A stretch of 34,396 nucleotides of DNA, taken from contig JAFAMZ010000211.1 in NCBI GenBank assembly GCA_019232935.1, positions 1 to 34,396 on the forward strand, written 5' to 3'. The notes under the pieces are model-generated. The model was not told where the DNA came from, ran no database searches, and saw nothing but the letters and a program-made list of their open reading frames with translations. Shown piece by piece: positions 26,463-33,732 of the stretch; positions within the stretch are counted from its first letter, which is position 1; every line of letters begins with the position of its first letter. This DNA comes from Silvibacterium sp. (GTDB lineage: Bacteria > Acidobacteriota > Terriglobia > Terriglobales > Acidobacteriaceae). The position numbers and the translations under genes were made by a program.

Positions 26463-27491
26463 TTACCAGCGATAGACCGTAAGGTTATCTAGAAAGACTG
26501 TAGCGTTGCTCGTCCCCCCGTTTGACCCATCCACCTGGAAGTTGAACACCATTGCCGGACCCCACCCGAGCGCAAATCCGGAGAAGACGGTGTAATTCAA
26601 ATCCTGCCGGTTGCCGTCAAGCCACACCGAGTGATACGTAACCCATCCCGACGAGTCATGCGAACTATAGATCTGCACGTGATGCCATTGATTCGTGCCC
26701 CAGCCATGTGGATCGCAGTAGGCGTACGAATGCTGCCAGGTGTCCCATGAATTGCTCGGAGAGCCGCCGTTGATCGAGTAATCCCAGGTGTGCGTCCAAC
26801 CGTCGCACTGAAACCCCATTAGCGCCGTCTCGCCGTTCGGCATCGTCTGGTTCAGGTCGAACTCCAGGTTCGAAAGCCCATCGGCTGAGTCCTTAATATT
26901 GACCCAGAAGTCGTAGACAAAGTTCTGCGAGGTCGTGTCGTCGCTGAACTGTACCGAGTATCGCTGCCCTCCAAAATTGCCGAAGCTGGTCGCAAACTGT
27001 CGCGCATTGCCACTCATGGATGGTGAATTCACGAGGTTCATCGACCCGTTCGACCATCCCGGTGTTCCCCCGTCGTGAATCTGGACCCAGTTGCCGAAGG
27101 TCTGGATTGCGCTGACGCTGGTCGCGTTCGGTGGTACCACTGAGGTTCCTCCGCTCTCCCCTCCTGTGACGTTCACGGAAACATCCGTAACGCAAACGCC
27201 GCCCTGGTTATTCCAGACCTTTACATGCAACGTGTGCAATCCCTCCGGCGCGTTCACAGGGCCATTGATCTGGTTGTCGGCCCACGCCGAAAGTTGTACG
27301 CTGCTGTCGAGCGAATAGCCGACAGCGACAACGGGCAGCGATGAGCAGGTATCGGCGTTCATTATGAGGGTGAATGGGGAACTGACCTGTGCGCCATTGG
27401 TCGGACTGGTGACCGCAGTCCCTGCCAGCGCATGGATTGAAGCCGCCGCGAGCATAATTCCCGCGACAAAAAATCTCCGGATCCTATTCAT
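26463..27491 (-). CDS. Secreted Ig-like plus concanavalin-like (jelly-roll) protein
   Basis: The 342 residues carry a signal peptide (RRFFVAGIMLAAASIHALAG). An N-terminal Ig-like domain follows (about 25-112: VTSPTNGAQVSSPFTLIMNA ... LHTLHVKVWNNQGGVCVTDVSVNV, with two cysteines), then a Gly/Ser linker, and a C-terminal jelly-roll-like domain (about 125-342) rich in Trp, Asn and Gly (WTHTWDYSINGG, WHHVQIYSSHDSSGWVTYHSVWLDG, VFLDNLTVYRW). The latter looks like a carbohydrate-binding or glucanase-type beta sandwich, but no catalytic Glu pair is evident. It ends at a terminator and is probably monocistronic. The substrate and family remain open. Confidence 0.75.
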   Translation of the reverse strand: MNRIRRFFVAGIMLAAASIHALAGTAVTSPTNGAQVSSPFTLIMNADTCSSLPVVAVGYSLDSSVQLSAWADNQINGPVNAPEGLHTLHVKVWNNQGGVCVTDVSVNVTGGESGGTSVVPPNATSVSAIQTFGNWVQIHDGGTPGWSNGSMNLVNSPSMSGNARQFATSFGNFGGQRYSVQFSDDTTSQNFVYDFWVNIKDSADGLSNLEFDLNQTMPNGETALMGFQCDGWTHTWDYSINGGSPSNSWDTWQHSYAYCDPHGWGTNQWHHVQIYSSHDSSGWVTYHSVWLDGNRQDLNYTVFSGFALGWGPAMVFNFQVDGSNGGTSNATVFLDNLTVYRW

Positions 27492-27847: not shown

Positions 27848-28222
27848 CTATGGGTGTTGAGACAGAGAGAGGATGTTTCCATCCGGGTCCGGGAACCAAG
27901 CCACCCTGGCCCGTTCGGGAGAAGTCCAGACGCCGGATTCGCTCTGCTCAAGCCATGGGTAGCGCTTGAATGAAATGCCGCGTGCAGCGAGAGCGGTCAC
28001 TTCCGCGTCGATGTTCCCCACCTCCCATCCGAGGATAGTGAACGGGAACGGCGTAAAGTCCTTCACATGGACGATGCGGATCATGTTGCCTTTTGCTTCC
28101 ATAACCAGCGCAAATGCGTCATCGCTCAGGAAGCGCAGCCCGAGGGTCTGCTCGTAGAAGGTGCGCGCCCGGGCGGGGTCCTTGGTGGGAATGAAGCCGA
28201 TTAGGTCGCATCTGGAAAGCAT
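27848..28222 (-). CDS. VOC family protein (glyoxalase fold)
   Basis: This single VOC module has 124 residues: LIGFIPTKDPARARTFYEQTLGLRF at the start, MIRIVHVKDFTPFPFTILGWEV in the middle, and VWTSPERARVAWFPDPDGNILSLSQ at the end. The metal-ligand positions typical of glyoxalase I are only partly retained, so it may bind a ligand and not catalyse. It is not close in sequence to the VOC protein at 18996. It lies downstream of the AhpD-like cluster, separated from it by 99 bases that contain a hairpin repeat, so it is probably an independent unit. Confidence 0.8.
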   Translation of the reverse strand: MLSRCDLIGFIPTKDPARARTFYEQTLGLRFLSDDAFALVMEAKGNMIRIVHVKDFTPFPFTILGWEVGNIDAEVTALAARGISFKRYPWLEQSESGVWTSPERARVAWFPDPDGNILSLSQHP

Positions 28223-28321: not shown

Positions 28322-28933
28322 CTATTTGGTCTCGACCGCGAGTTCCTTGTCCGCCGCCTCGCGGGCCGTCCGGTAGTACTCGGGCTCGGGCTGCTCGGCA
28401 GGACGCTTGCGGTAACCTTCTTCGGCCAGATGCTTGCCCATCTGTGCGTACATCGTCTCGTCGCGGGGCTGCCAGGTGCCGAGTCCGTCCACATAGCGGT
28501 TGAACATGCAGAAGGCCGCAGCGATGAGTACCGTGTCGTGAATCTCCATTTCCGTCGCGCCCAGCCGGCGGGCACGGTCGATGTCGGTCGAGGTGACGTT
28601 TTTGCCGCTCTGCTGCACTTTGCCGGCAATGGCGAGCAGAGCCTTGAGCTTGGGCGAAACCGGAGCTGATTCAAAGTCCGTTTTCACCTGCTTCACAATC
28701 TCGCTGCTGCCCAGGTGGCATGCTGCGGCAGCTCCATGGCTCGTCTGGCAGAAGTAGCAGTCGTTCTGCGAAGAGACATAGGTGGCGATCAGCTCGCGCT
28801 CGCCGGGCGTCAGCGAATTCGCCTCGTGCAGCAGAATATGAGCAAGCTCGCGCATAGGTTTTGCGGTCTCGGGACGGAATGCGAATCCGGCCGTAATGCC
28901 GGCGAGTCCTTCGGGAAGGGCGATGTGGGGCAT
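28322..28933 (-). CDS. AhpD-like/carboxymuconolactone decarboxylase protein, copy 1
   Basis: The 203-residue protein carries the AhpD redox site E47-x11-C59-x2-C62-x3-H66 (NDCYFCQTSHG). In AhpD these residues reduce the AhpC peroxiredoxin partner; in the peroxidase-related subgroup the role is not established. It is the last of three tandem paralogues and the most divergent: it has Ser65 where the others have a third Cys, and a longer charged tail (GYRKRPAEQPEPEYYRTAREAADKE). A CCAGGAG ribosome site precedes the ATG, and it lies 16 bases downstream of copy 2. Confidence 0.85.
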   Translation of the reverse strand: MPHIALPEGLAGITAGFAFRPETAKPMRELAHILLHEANSLTPGERELIATYVSSQNDCYFCQTSHGAAAACHLGSSEIVKQVKTDFESAPVSPKLKALLAIAGKVQQSGKNVTSTDIDRARRLGATEMEIHDTVLIAAAFCMFNRYVDGLGTWQPRDETMYAQMGKHLAEEGYRKRPAEQPEPEYYRTAREAADKELAVETK

Positions 28934-28949
28934 GGCTGTTCTCCTGGGA

Positions 28950-29522
28950 TTATTTTGCTACGGTTTCGGCGGGCAGATATTCCTGGCTGATGAAGACATA
29001 TCCGTCACGGGCGATGCGCTTGCCGCGCTCGCGATACATGGCTTCGTCGCGTGGCTGCCAGGTGCCTAACCCGTCGACGTAGCGGTTGAACATGCAGAAG
29101 GCAGCAGAAATGAGCACGGTATCGTGTATCTCCAGGTCGCTCGCCTCGGCAGCGCGGGCCTGCGCAACGTCTTCTGCCGTGACGCTTTTGCCGCTCTTCT
29201 GGACCTTTCCGGCAATAACCAGCAGCGCCTTCAGCTTTTCGGAAATATCGGCGTGTTGGAAATCGGCCTTCACGCGCTTGACCAGCTCTTCGTCGCCATT
29301 GAGGCATGCAGCGGCTATGTACCCATGGCAAGTCTGGCAGTAGTAGCAGTCATTCAGATAAGAGACGTAGGTGCCGATCAGTTCGCGCTCGCCTGGCGTG
29401 AGCGTGTGCGGTCCGTGCAGCAGCGTTTCGATGAAGTCGTTCATTGGCCGGGCGGTCTCGGGCCGGAAAGCCATCAGGCCGCGAATGCCGGGAAGTCCTT
29501 CGGGAAGGGAAATGTATGCCAT
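28950..29522 (-). CDS. AhpD-like/carboxymuconolactone decarboxylase protein, copy 2
   Basis: This 190-residue paralogue shares the start (M.YISLPEGLPGIRGLMAFRPETARP) and the whole core with copies 1 and 3. The redox motif is E47, C59, C62 and H66 with an additional Cys65 (NDCYYCQTCHG), which could form a second disulfide or a metal site. The C-terminus is short (GYVFISQEYLPAETVAK). An AAGGAGC ribosome site lies just upstream of the ATG, and an 11-base gap separates it from copy 3. It is translated as part of the permease-AhpD-like operon. Confidence 0.87.
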   Translation of the reverse strand: MAYISLPEGLPGIRGLMAFRPETARPMNDFIETLLHGPHTLTPGERELIGTYVSYLNDCYYCQTCHGYIAAACLNGDEELVKRVKADFQHADISEKLKALLVIAGKVQKSGKSVTAEDVAQARAAEASDLEIHDTVLISAAFCMFNRYVDGLGTWQPRDEAMYRERGKRIARDGYVFISQEYLPAETVAK

Positions 29523-29533
29523 GAAGGCGCTCC

Positions 29534-30118
29534 TTATTTGACGATGAGTTCCGCCGCGGGTTTCGGCGGCAGGTATTCGTTACTGGCGGAGATGTATCCC
29601 ACCTTGGCAACATGCTTGCCGCGCTCGCGGTAGAGAGCTTCAGCGTGCGGCTGCCACGTATCCAGACCGTCCACGTAGCGGTTGTACATGCAAAACGCCG
29701 CAGCGATGAGCACGGTATCGTGGATCTCAAGATCGGTCGCGCCTACGGTGTGCGCAAAATCGACATCGTCGGCTGTTACCTGTTTGCCGCCCTTCTGGAC
29801 CTTGCCGGCGATCACGAGTAGAGCCTTCAGCTTCTCGGAAATGTCGGCATGCTGGAAGTCGGCCTTCACGCGCCTGACCAGTTCTTCGTCTCCGTCGTGC
29901 AAGGCTGCGGCGATATACCCGTGGCATGTTTGGCAGTAATAGCAATCGTTTAGATACGACACGTAAGTGGCGATCAGCTCACGCTCGCCGGCGGAAAGCG
30001 TGTTCGGGGCGTGCAGAAGCACTTCGGCGAGAGCGTTCAGCGGCCGTGCGGTTTCCGGGCGAAACGCCATCGCGCCTCGAATGCCGGTCAATCCTTCAGG
30101 TAGGGAGATATGGGGCAT
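29534..30118 (-). CDS. AhpD-like/carboxymuconolactone decarboxylase protein, copy 3
   Basis: ATG 30118 (AGGAAA six bases upstream, MPHISLPEGLTGIRG) is the start that matches the two paralogues. The track's 30160 would overlap the permease gene with an unrelated basic extension. The 194 residues contain E47, C59, C62, C65 and H66 in NDCYYCQTCHG and the helical core EKLKALLVIAGKVQ, DLEIHDTVLIAAAFCMYNRYVDGL. The tail NEYLPPKPAAELIVK differs from the others. It is the first of the three after the permease gene, 10 bases from its stop, so it is probably co-transcribed with it. Confidence 0.88.
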   Translation of the reverse strand: MPHISLPEGLTGIRGAMAFRPETARPLNALAEVLLHAPNTLSAGERELIATYVSYLNDCYYCQTCHGYIAAALHDGDEELVRRVKADFQHADISEKLKALLVIAGKVQKGGKQVTADDVDFAHTVGATDLEIHDTVLIAAAFCMYNRYVDGLDTWQPHAEALYRERGKHVAKVGYISASNEYLPPKPAAELIVK

Positions 30119-30128
30119 GCGTTTTCCT

Positions 30129-31454
30129 TTATCCGGGAAGAGTTTCCGTCGCGGTTTCAACCGCGATTGGTGTTGTCGGTGACAAACGGCGGTGCAAAAG
30201 GCCTCCGGCGAGCACGACGGCCACGCCGATAAGCGCGGGGACGGGGCTATGCATCAGGATGAGCAGCGCCACCACGGCGCTTCCTGCGAGATAGATGATC
30301 GGAGCCGCAGGAAACCACCAGCGCCGGACTGGCTCCTTCACGCGGAACAGCGTGGTGACGGAAAGCGCGAGAAACACTACGGCGGAAAAAATGATGTAGG
30401 CGAGAATCTTGTCGAACGCCCCGAAAAGAAGGATGAGCAGCGCACCGCAGGTCTGCAACAGGATGGCGTTCGCCGGGGTCCCGAAGCGCGGGTGCAGCCG
30501 TCCGAAGACCGAGAAAAATGCGCTGTCTTTCGCCATGGCGTAGTAGACGCGAGGCGCGGCCATGGTCAGTGCCATCAGGCCTCCGGCGACCGAAAGCAGC
30601 ACGCAGGCGGAGAGAATCCGTCCTCCGGCCGTGCCGAACAGCGCTTCTCCGAACTGGGCGACGAAGGCCGTGTTCGACACGATCCGGTCAAGGGGCACAA
30701 CCGCCAGAAATGCGAAGCTGACCAGCAGGTAGACAGCAGTGACGAGCAGAACTCCGCAGGTGAAGGCCAGCGGCAGCGTGCGGCTCGGGTTGCGGACTTC
30801 GCCCGCAAGCTTGCCCGCCTCCCACCAGCCACCAAAGCTGAAGAAGGCGCTGACCACGGATCCCGCGATGGCCGCAAAGAGCATATCGGAGCCGGGCCGT
30901 CGCGTCGCCAGAGGAAGCAGGTTCGCCGTGGAGGCGTGTCCCGATACGAAGGCCCAGGCGACAAGCGCGAAGAGCACGGCAATCTTCAGCAGGTTGGCAG
31001 TTGCCATCACGCGCCCGCTGAGCCGCGTGCCCAGATAATTGACCGCCCCAAGCACGATGAGTATCGCAAATGGCAGCACTGTCGCGAGGCGCGGCGAAAT
31101 GGCAACAATCGCCTGCACGTACGGAACCGCTCCGAAGGCGAGCGCGGCGGCCACTCCCGGATCGATTACGGCTGCGGACATCCATCCGTAAAGAAAAGCC
31201 ACGCGCGGCCCATATCCTTCGCGCAGGTAGACATACTCGCCTCCCGCCACGGGGTAGCGCACTGCAAGCTCGGAATAGCAGAGCGCTCCGGCGAGTGCCA
31301 TAAGCGCCATGCCGCACCAGACTGCGGCGAGCAGGGCAGGCGAGCCCAGCGATTTGGCCATTGCGGCGGGCGTGAGGAAGATCCCCAGCGCGATGGCCTC
31401 GCCGCTGACGACGGCGATGGTCGCGGCCAGGCCCATCTGTCTTTTCGGTTCCAT
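30129..31454 (-). CDS. APC-superfamily amino acid permease
   Basis: The 441-residue protein has about 12 hydrophobic helices and the APC consensus near the N-terminus: VVSGEAIALGIFLTPAAMAKS in helix 1, CYSELAVRYPVAGGEYVYLREGYGP around helices 2-3 and LYGWMSAAVIDPGVAAALAFG next. It likely moves an amino acid or polyamine by antiport or proton symport; the substrate is not predictable. The gene opens an operon with the three AhpD-like genes, the first of which begins ten bases after its stop. A permease linked to AhpD-like proteins suggests uptake of a compound that generates or responds to oxidative stress. Confidence 0.85.
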   Translation of the reverse strand: MEPKRQMGLAATIAVVSGEAIALGIFLTPAAMAKSLGSPALLAAVWCGMALMALAGALCYSELAVRYPVAGGEYVYLREGYGPRVAFLYGWMSAAVIDPGVAAALAFGAVPYVQAIVAISPRLATVLPFAILIVLGAVNYLGTRLSGRVMATANLLKIAVLFALVAWAFVSGHASTANLLPLATRRPGSDMLFAAIAGSVVSAFFSFGGWWEAGKLAGEVRNPSRTLPLAFTCGVLLVTAVYLLVSFAFLAVVPLDRIVSNTAFVAQFGEALFGTAGGRILSACVLLSVAGGLMALTMAAPRVYYAMAKDSAFFSVFGRLHPRFGTPANAILLQTCGALLILLFGAFDKILAYIIFSAVVFLALSVTTLFRVKEPVRRWWFPAAPIIYLAGSAVVALLILMHSPVPALIGVAVVLAGGLLHRRLSPTTPIAVETATETLPG

Positions 31455-31530: not shown

Positions 31531-32313
31531 CTACGCCCGCACCACCAGCTGTGCGTGCACCGAAACGACTCGCCGCGTCACAAGATGGCTCGCAACGAAA
31601 CAAGCGAGTGCCGATGAAGAGAAGATCGTCGTCAGCACGACGAACTGGTAGAGAGCTGCGTAGAGCGGCGACGATCCGGACAGGACCATGCCCGCCATGA
31701 TGCCGGGAATCCACACAATTCCGAGCGAGCGTATGTTGTCGACGGCCGGGATAAGACTGGCGCGAAAGGCGGCCTGCAGATACCGCTCGACTGCGGTGTC
31801 CGGGGTCGCCCCGAGGGCGAGAGCCGACTCGATTTCGCCGACATGGGCGGCGATTTCGCCGCGAAAGCGGTCCAGAAAAATCGACTGCGTATTCATCGTA
31901 TTCGCGATGACCATGCTGCCCACCGGGATCAGCGTGAGAATCTTCAATGGGATCACTCCCGTGACGGTCATCACCACAAGAACGCTCCCCGCTCCTGCGC
32001 CGATGGCGATGAGAGCGAGCGCGAAGGCTCCCGGAATCCTCTTCGCGCGTTTGCAGACGATGCTTGCAGCGGCCAGAATCATTCCCGCCAGGACAAAGAT
32101 CGAGGTCCACGCGGGACCGCGGAGCAGGGCCGCCAGGATCGCCCCCACTGCGACGATCTGCAGAATGCCTCGAAGCTCGGCCAGTGGGACTTCTCTGAGC
32201 AGGCCCGGCGCGCGCCGTCTTGCGAGCAGGATTACACCGATTGTCGCGGCAGCCGTGATCGCGCAGTAGACCGCTCCGCGAGCGAGCTGGTTGGAGAAAT
32301 ACTGCTCAAACAT
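31531..32313 (-). CDS. fetB: Iron efflux ABC transporter permease FetB (YbbM family)
   Basis: FetB is the membrane partner of FetA in an exporter linked to iron homeostasis and peroxide resistance in Escherichia coli. The 260 residues match the UPF0014/FetB family: VPLAELRGILQIVAVGAI, the conserved PVGSMVIANTMNTQSIFLDRF and ESALALGATPDTAVERYLQAAFRASLIPAVDN, and GIVWIPGIMAGMVLSGSSP, with about seven membrane helices. The start overlaps the fetA stop by eight bases, the usual coupled arrangement. The call is firm. No iron regulator lies beside it. Confidence 0.9.
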   Translation of the reverse strand: MFEQYFSNQLARGAVYCAITAAATIGVILLARRRAPGLLREVPLAELRGILQIVAVGAILAALLRGPAWTSIFVLAGMILAAASIVCKRAKRIPGAFALALIAIGAGAGSVLVVMTVTGVIPLKILTLIPVGSMVIANTMNTQSIFLDRFRGEIAAHVGEIESALALGATPDTAVERYLQAAFRASLIPAVDNIRSLGIVWIPGIMAGMVLSGSSPLYAALYQFVVLTTIFSSSALACFVASHLVTRRVVSVHAQLVVRA

Positions 32314-33010
32314 CGGCGGCCTCCACTCGCTTTAAAAGCACTTCATCGGGAGTGCCCAGCGCTTTCATCCGTCCCGCCTCGACTACCAGGACGCGGTCTG
32401 CCATGGCTCGCGCCTGTTCCGGGCTGTGCGTCACCCACAGGCAAGTCAGATGCCGCTCTCGAATCAGCCGCTCCAGCAGCCGCTCCACGCTTCCGCGCGA
32501 AGCTTCATCGAGCGCCGAAGTCGGCTCGTCAAGCAGCAGGACCTCCGGCTCGTTTGCCAGGGCCCGGGTGATCGCCACTCGCTGTGCTTCTCCGCCGGAC
32601 AAAGTCAAGGCGTCACGCGAGGCATAGTCTTCCAATCCGACTTCCGCGAGCAGAGCCTCGATCTGCGCTGCGGCCATTGTTTCTCCTCGTTGCCGGGGGC
32701 CGAAGACAATATTGTCCGCTATTGTCCCGGGAAACAGATAAGCGCGCTGCATCACCATCCCGATCACGCGGCGCAGGGCGTCCGGGGCCAACTCCCGGTA
32801 ATCCCTGCCGTGAAAGAAGACAGTCCCCTCTGTCGGCTCATCGAGCCGGTTGACCAGCCGCAGGAGGGTGCTTTTTCCCGCGCCGCTCGGGCCAACAATT
32901 GCAAGCACTTCGCCCGGGACCACCCCGAAGCTGACTCCGCGCAGAAGAAATTGCCCTGAGGGGGACAACTCGCGGCCAAGATTGCGGCACTCAACTAATA
33001 TGTCGGGCAT
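32306..33010 (-). CDS. fetA: Iron efflux ABC transporter ATP-binding protein FetA
   Basis: This is the ATPase subunit paired with FetB. From ATG 33010 (GAGG upstream) the product has 234 residues; the track's extension to 33076 is a Cys-rich non-homologous leader overlapping the divergent promoter and is rejected. Motifs: Walker A GPSGAGKST, Q-loop VMQRAYLFPGT, signature LSGGEAQRV, Walker B VLLLDEPTSALD and H-loop WVTHSPEQ. The core length is typical of the family. The 65-base gap to the divergent DUF4142 gene holds both promoters. Confidence 0.9.
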   Translation of the reverse strand: MPDILVECRNLGRELSPSGQFLLRGVSFGVVPGEVLAIVGPSGAGKSTLLRLVNRLDEPTEGTVFFHGRDYRELAPDALRRVIGMVMQRAYLFPGTIADNIVFGPRQRGETMAAAQIEALLAEVGLEDYASRDALTLSGGEAQRVAITRALANEPEVLLLDEPTSALDEASRGSVERLLERLIRERHLTCLWVTHSPEQARAMADRVLVVEAGRMKALGTPDEVLLKRVEAADV

Positions 33011-33075
33011 TTCCTCAAGGCAGCACAGCCAGTGTACATGGCTGCATCCCGAGTCCCGGCAGGAGGAACTCCCCA

Positions 33076-33732
33076 ATGATCCGAAGACGATTCTCCAGTG
33101 CCGCGTCCTTGTTCGCCGGCGCGGCTTTGTTCATCGGCACGAGCGCCTTGGCGCAGATGACTCCCAGTCAAACCGCACCGCAGAATCCGGCGACCGCGAA
33201 TCCCAACGCAAACCCTAACATGACCACGGCTGACACGATGCAGCAGCAACAGGCCGCCTCCGGCCAGATGCAGGACAAAACCTTCGTCCGCGAGGCGATG
33301 GAAGGCGGTATGGCCGAGGTCGAGCTGGGCCAGCTGGCTTCGCAAAAAGCGTCCAGCGATGACGTAAAGCAGTTCGGCCAGAAGATGGTCGACGACCACA
33401 CGAAGCTCAACGATCAGATGAAGCCGGTAGCAGAGCAACTGGGAGTGACGCCGCCAACACAGCTCTCAAAGAAAGACCAGGAACTGAAGGCCAGGCTCCA
33501 GAACCTGTCAGGCACACAGTTCGATAACGAGTACATCAGGTGCATGCTGAAGGACCATAAGAAGGACGCCGCCGAATTCAAGCAGGAAGCGCAGAACGCC
33601 CAGAATCCGGCTGTGCAGCAGGCGGCGCAGCAGGGCTCGCAGGTCATCGAACAGCACCTGCAGATGATCGAGCAGATTGCGCAGAGCCATAACATCAGCG
33701 GCAGCAAAGGCAAGAATGCCGGCGGCCAGTAA
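33076..33732 (+). CDS. DUF4142 exported protein
   Basis: An AGGAGG ribosome site precedes the ATG. The 218 residues begin with a signal peptide (FSSAASLFAGAALFIGTSALAQ) and a low-complexity Asn/Pro/Gln linker. The DUF4142 four-helix domain follows (about 72-205), with FVREAMEGGMAEVELGQLASQKASSDDVKQFGQKMVDDHTK, and the helical tail is Gln/Ala rich. The fold is ferritin-like, but iron-binding residues are not established for the family; it is probably periplasmic. A strong terminator follows at 33759. Confidence 0.9.
   Translation: MIRRRFSSAASLFAGAALFIGTSALAQMTPSQTAPQNPATANPNANPNMTTADTMQQQQAASGQMQDKTFVREAMEGGMAEVELGQLASQKASSDDVKQFGQKMVDDHTKLNDQMKPVAEQLGVTPPTQLSKKDQELKARLQNLSGTQFDNEYIRCMLKDHKKDAAEFKQEAQNAQNPAVQQAAQQGSQVIEQHLQMIEQIAQSHNISGSKGKNAGGQ

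Follow-up and report, generated by a model that had tools for sequence, protein, structure and literature searches.

A LAT-like permease conserved beside AhpD-like genes in Acidobacteriota suggests a transport-coupled thiol or selenol enzyme module

Several proteins of the TIGR01926 family (peroxidase-related enzyme) have solved structures, yet they still go by such names as uncharacterized peroxidase-related protein. Other AhpD-like proteins are better described: PA0269, which has a CxxC motif, reduces H2O2; the AhpD of Mycobacterium tuberculosis belongs to an AhpC/AhpD system; Bmp8 is a debrominase; and AhpD-like selenoproteins of TIGR01926, with the motif CxxU, are catalogued in a review (PMC13188914). 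Among amino-acid transporters, BasC is a bacterial LAT alanine-serine-cysteine exchanger, and its residues Lys154 (TM5) and Tyr236 (TM7) are described as fully conserved in LATs (PMC6472337).

The present study concerns a locus of a soil acidobacterium (Silvibacterium sp.), analysed within a stretch of 34,396 nucleotides, here called the window. Its minus strand carries an apparent four-gene operon, as had been proposed in an earlier note made from the sequence alone, comprising an APC permease gene (30129-31454, 441 aa; PF13520, 7.8e-47) as the first gene of the conserved unit, followed by the genes of three AhpD-like proteins, A1 (29534-30118, 194 aa), A2 (28950-29522, 190 aa) and B (28322-28933, 203 aa), the last to be transcribed. 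Re-reading of the sequence confirmed the shared strand and the intergenic gaps of 10, 11 and 16 bases; of the ribosome sites that the earlier note gave to every gene, those before all three AhpD-like genes were AGGAG-like, but the one before the permease was weak. A scan for promoters and terminators gave no signal above chance. The AhpD-like set is not a product of chance, since A1, A2 and B (97.5, 92.1 and 94.2 bits) all pass the curated TIGR01926 cut-off of 81.8 bits and that of PF02627, and since the arrangement recurs in many genomes. The AhpD equivalog model did not match the window proteins at E 0.001 in the NCBIfam search, nor did a PcaC-type (gamma-carboxymuconolactone decarboxylase) model, the broad PF02627 domain being the only related match. 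As the note had stated, no ahpC, katG or peroxiredoxin gene is adjacent, and the ORFs of the window that were scanned include none.

Directly upstream, in the same orientation, are genes for a UPF0014/FetB-like ABC permease (31531-32313; PF03649, 3.7e-54, below the FetB equivalog cut-off) and a FetA-like ABC ATPase (32306-33076; ABC_tran, 1.1e-35; PRK10247 FetA, 161.5 bits, under the cut-off). By their conservation they probably lie outside the permease-AhpD unit, and were rejected as members, as they are retained upstream only in one same-genus genome (G008, locus L052), at a distance of about 750 bases. A glyoxalase gene (27848-28222) was likewise rejected as a partner, being 3.3 kb away in L052. 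The window also encodes a 342-aa secreted-looking protein (26463-27491) that has no Pfam or NCBIfam match.

The best-scoring solved relative of the permease was BasC (6F2G, 6.6e-45), and the equivalents of its Lys154 and Tyr236 are present as K157 and Y242, the former kept in 43 of 44 relatives (with one gap) and the latter in 44 of 44. On these residues the permease is LAT-like, and amino-acid exchange is predicted. Its TM6 sequence, FSFGGWWE, replaces the FAYDGWIN of BasC, so its substrate is probably a different one. A wider TM6 signature, FF(S/C)FGGWW(E/D), is common to the permease group of the window and the group beside Sec-type AhpD-like genes (FFSFGGWWE in the window), and is lacking in an unlinked APC protein (L128).

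Outside this genome, the neighbourhood comparison that the earlier note had named as a refuting test upheld the linkage between permease and AhpD-like genes. A same-strand AhpD-like gene lay within 400 bases at 28 of 30 loci in an order-wide search made with a distant permease, and among 200 genomes sampled from the family 18 of 20 permeases with at least 59% identity abutted an A copy. Across 80 named AhpD loci, the permease was directly upstream of A in 26. Two permeases close to the window family had no adjacent AhpD-like gene (L172, L175), the gene order was reversed once (L036), and one further pair came from a different family of the phylum (L141). Judged from these neighbourhoods, the link is real and old, and conserved across the order; no publication on it was found in the open-access literature.

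The three AhpD-like genes are of two kinds. In a tree of 202 homologues, A1 and A2 fell inside an A clade (SH-aLRT 100), and the third copy, copy 1 of the earlier note, which numbered them by coordinate, grouped with B proteins. A1 and A2 are 75% identical, and A1 and B 62-63%. The note's old duplications maintained by selection agree with dN/dS values of 0.06-0.28, indicating purifying selection, though dS was often near saturation. By tree path, the nearest rows to A2 were L052, a same-genus locus with a single A, and L132. With the A of L052, A2 shares 80% identity and A1 75%, so that A1 looks like the added copy, while the window B groups with the B of L052 (87% identity) and is the orthologue of B copies elsewhere. 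The order A then B occurred at 55 of the 80 named Acidobacteriota loci; of all loci mapped, the window alone had the A-A-B triplet, while one further genome (G068) carries three copies in tandem at the end of a contig. Thus, of the permease and AhpD triplet that had been put forward, the permease link recurs, but the triplet is not a conserved unit: by gene order and tree the unit is the A-B pair, and the triplet is a local, lineage-specific expansion of it, the third copy being an extra A. A and B need not form strict hetero-oligomers, since at some loci no B adjoins A, although B may sit elsewhere in those genomes. An in-frame TAG in one B copy (G001) was dismissed as an anomaly, being the normal stop.

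The motif E-x11-CxxC-x3-H was present in all three proteins, as first read, with the Glu/CxxC/His relay at E47, C59, C62 and H66. The noted third Cys was also seen, A1 and A2 having CYYCQTCHG and B CYFCQTSHG, but it was found in only 2 of 203 homologues, both of them the window A copies, and so is not borne out as a functional feature. Nor does CxxC appear to be an essential motif. The first Cys is a Thr in relatives that are 46-59% identical and keep similar gene company. Cys59 is Thr in most of the Streptomyces and Spirosoma homologues, and in one Acidobacteriaceae clade it is shifted or absent. In that clade (L098-L114) the first active-site Cys of A is shifted (NCTHYC, CxxxC) or lost and that of B is lost in some members, with the second Cys and the His retained. 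Comparison of the homologues indicates that Cys59 is dispensable in the subfamily. Constant across 209 aligned sequences were Ile13, Glu47, Ser54, Cys62 (or Sec) and His66, and nearly constant were Asn57, Asn146 and Arg147. His133, Asp134, Leu137, Tyr148 and Val149 were constant in A, B and the homologues from Spirosoma and Streptomyces, and not in C or Sec types; the A/B subfamily has the constant stretch IHDTVLI..NRYVDG. This conservation would favour a one-Cys reaction with a defined small molecule as substrate, and the original description of these proteins as redox proteins stands in so far as thiol chemistry is probable.

Permeases 45-49% identical to that of the window were found in eight genomes upstream of AhpD-like CPYU proteins, whose identity to A is only about 25% and in which an in-frame UGA occupies the Cys62 column, that of the second motif Cys. 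All eight genomes gave a strong match to SelB or tRNA-Sec, and six to both. In a sample of ten genomes that carry the permease operon of Cys type, SelB exceeded the cut-off only in G008. The region after the UGA, folded as a candidate SECIS hairpin, contained an invariant 7-bp stem across the eight genes, with no covariation and z about 0. From the UGA at the catalytic column and the Sec machinery, these relatives are taken to be a selenoprotein form, and a natural exchange of Cys for Sec indicates which residue is catalytic. A second set of Sec AhpD-like proteins (CVYUIESHA type; L028, L034) adjoins AMP-binding, acyl-CoA synthetase-like genes.

Other transporters keep company with the AhpD-like genes. 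An MCT/OFA-like MFS transporter, replacing the permease or in addition to it, was found at 28 of the 80 loci, and an RDH-like Fe-S gene beside related AhpD genes at 14. At five loci (L044, L058, L061, L072 and L108) a tight cluster of a C-type AhpD, an RDH-like Fe-S protein and an MFS transporter lies downstream of A-B; the AhpD and RDH-like reading frames overlap, an outer-membrane receptor is also found upstream in four of the five, and the cluster resembles a catabolic operon. Acidobacteriota are rich in TonB/Oar-type receptors, so that receptor proximity is weak evidence. In other phyla, a Spirosoma plasmid has the gene row AhpD, TonB/SusC-like receptor, aromatic-acid-type MFS symporter, AhpD, AhpD; of the Streptomyces plasmids inspected, three place an AhpD gene next to a metabolite/H+ symporter-type MFS gene and a fourth places one next to an MFS gene. 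Others had no transporter directly beside AhpD. The family names of these transporters suggest uptake. One Streptomyces AhpD-MFS pair adjoins an annotated enediyne antibiotic chromoprotein gene (L179, 5001-5540).

An AlphaFold2 model of A1 (pLDDT 92) best matched solved TIGR01926 proteins (Foldseek E about 1e-7, TM 0.7). The debrominase Bmp8 (6ohj; TM 0.67, 18% identity) ranked below several plain peroxidase-related structures, and the family sequence profile weakly reached both Sestrin-2 and Bmp8 (E 0.0018 for the latter); these two matches are leads only.

The reading we favour, at a probability of roughly 0.6 and on comparative grounds, is that the locus encodes a transporter-coupled, Cys/Sec-dependent module of AhpD-fold enzymes acting on an imported amino-acid or amino-acid-like carboxylate compound. 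The LAT-like exchanger would carry the compound through the inner membrane; in the cytoplasm it would be acted on by the AhpD-fold enzymes, whose two old types, A and B, are represented here by A1, A2 and B. The Glu47-His66 relay would activate Cys62 as the reactive nucleophile, with Cys59 a convenient, replaceable resolving thiol, and the A/B-specific stretch IHDTVLIAAAFCMYNRYVDG would likely shape the substrate pocket. We infer the nucleophile role, the direction of import and the coupling of transport to catalysis; export is also possible, because LAT proteins are exchangers.

An unlikely, though not far-fetched, alternative is an antioxidant module, resembling at the level of an operon the xCT-GPX4 pair of animals, in which the AhpD-like proteins would be dithiol peroxidases or adaptors removing peroxides, and the permease would supply cysteine, cystine or a thiol precursor. 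The proton-relay residues agree with AhpD; BasC, the closest transporter of solved structure, exchanges Ala, Ser and Cys; a Sec in the reactive position fits a peroxidase; and peroxidase activity is plausible in itself, since CxxC AhpD-like proteins such as PA0269 can reduce peroxide. However, the ORFs scanned include no nearby peroxiredoxin or reductase partner, many relatives lack the first Cys, the alternative transporters are of carboxylate or aromatic-acid types, and the binding-site signature of the permease is unlike that of BasC. Peroxide defence, though possible, is no longer the favoured reading, as the genes that recur nearby encode uptake-type transporters and outer-membrane receptors rather than peroxiredoxins; the conserved pairing suggests an import-and-process system.

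As a further alternative, the enzymes could cleave a C-X bond in a halogenated amino acid or carboxylate after its import, by reductive dehalogenation or similar thiol/selenol chemistry, which would make the module comparable to the AhpD-superfamily debrominase Bmp8. The structural and profile matches to that enzyme, the RDH-like genes at 14 of the 80 loci and the existence of Sec variants all lean that way. It is nevertheless improbable: plain peroxidase-related structures outranked Bmp8, and the RDH-like gene scores under the RDH cut-off and never occurs in permease-type loci. That the gene order is due to chance or merely local, with permease and AhpD functionally unlinked, can be given very little credence. 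A-B pairs do occur without the permease at some loci, but the 28 of 30 adjacent permeases refute this at the level of linkage, and the two permease groups, the occurrence with both Cys and Sec AhpD types, and the one reversed gene order also speak against it; by our own estimate, the adjacency probability per permease is of the order of 0.001.

A permease conserved beside both Cys and Sec versions is a strong gene-company clue to the substrate class of these proteins and makes their function directly testable. A bolder proposal, which we consider a long shot, is that the transport-coupled AhpD-fold family cleaves amino-acid-like compounds after their import by means of a single Cys or Sec, going beyond peroxide reduction. 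If true, this could extend to the reductive removal of halogen from halogenated aromatic amino acids, for example, with LAT-like or MCT-like transporters serving the enzymes, as in animal thyroid-hormone handling.

In relation to the known systems, the window proteins have the same fold and the same Glu/Cys/Cys/His relay as the TIGR01926 structures (2OYO, 3C1L, 2PRR, 2PFX, 6K40), but A and B form a subfamily with its own constant stretch, a dispensable first Cys and a linked LAT-like permease. They share E-x11-CxxC-x3-H with the AhpD of the M. tuberculosis AhpC/AhpD system, but match it weakly in structure (TM 0.41-0.44), with no ahpC neighbour in the ORFs scanned and no AhpD equivalog match. 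Bmp8, compared by fold and profile, belongs to the same superfamily with the CMD/AhpD fold, but identity is about 18% and the gene company differs. The permease retains the Lys154 and Tyr236 equivalents of BasC and departs from it in TM6. The CxxU selenoproteins are of the same family and have Sec at the same position, but the review's listing of the Sec protein names no transporter partner for it, whereas in the genomes compared here the permease lies in its locus.
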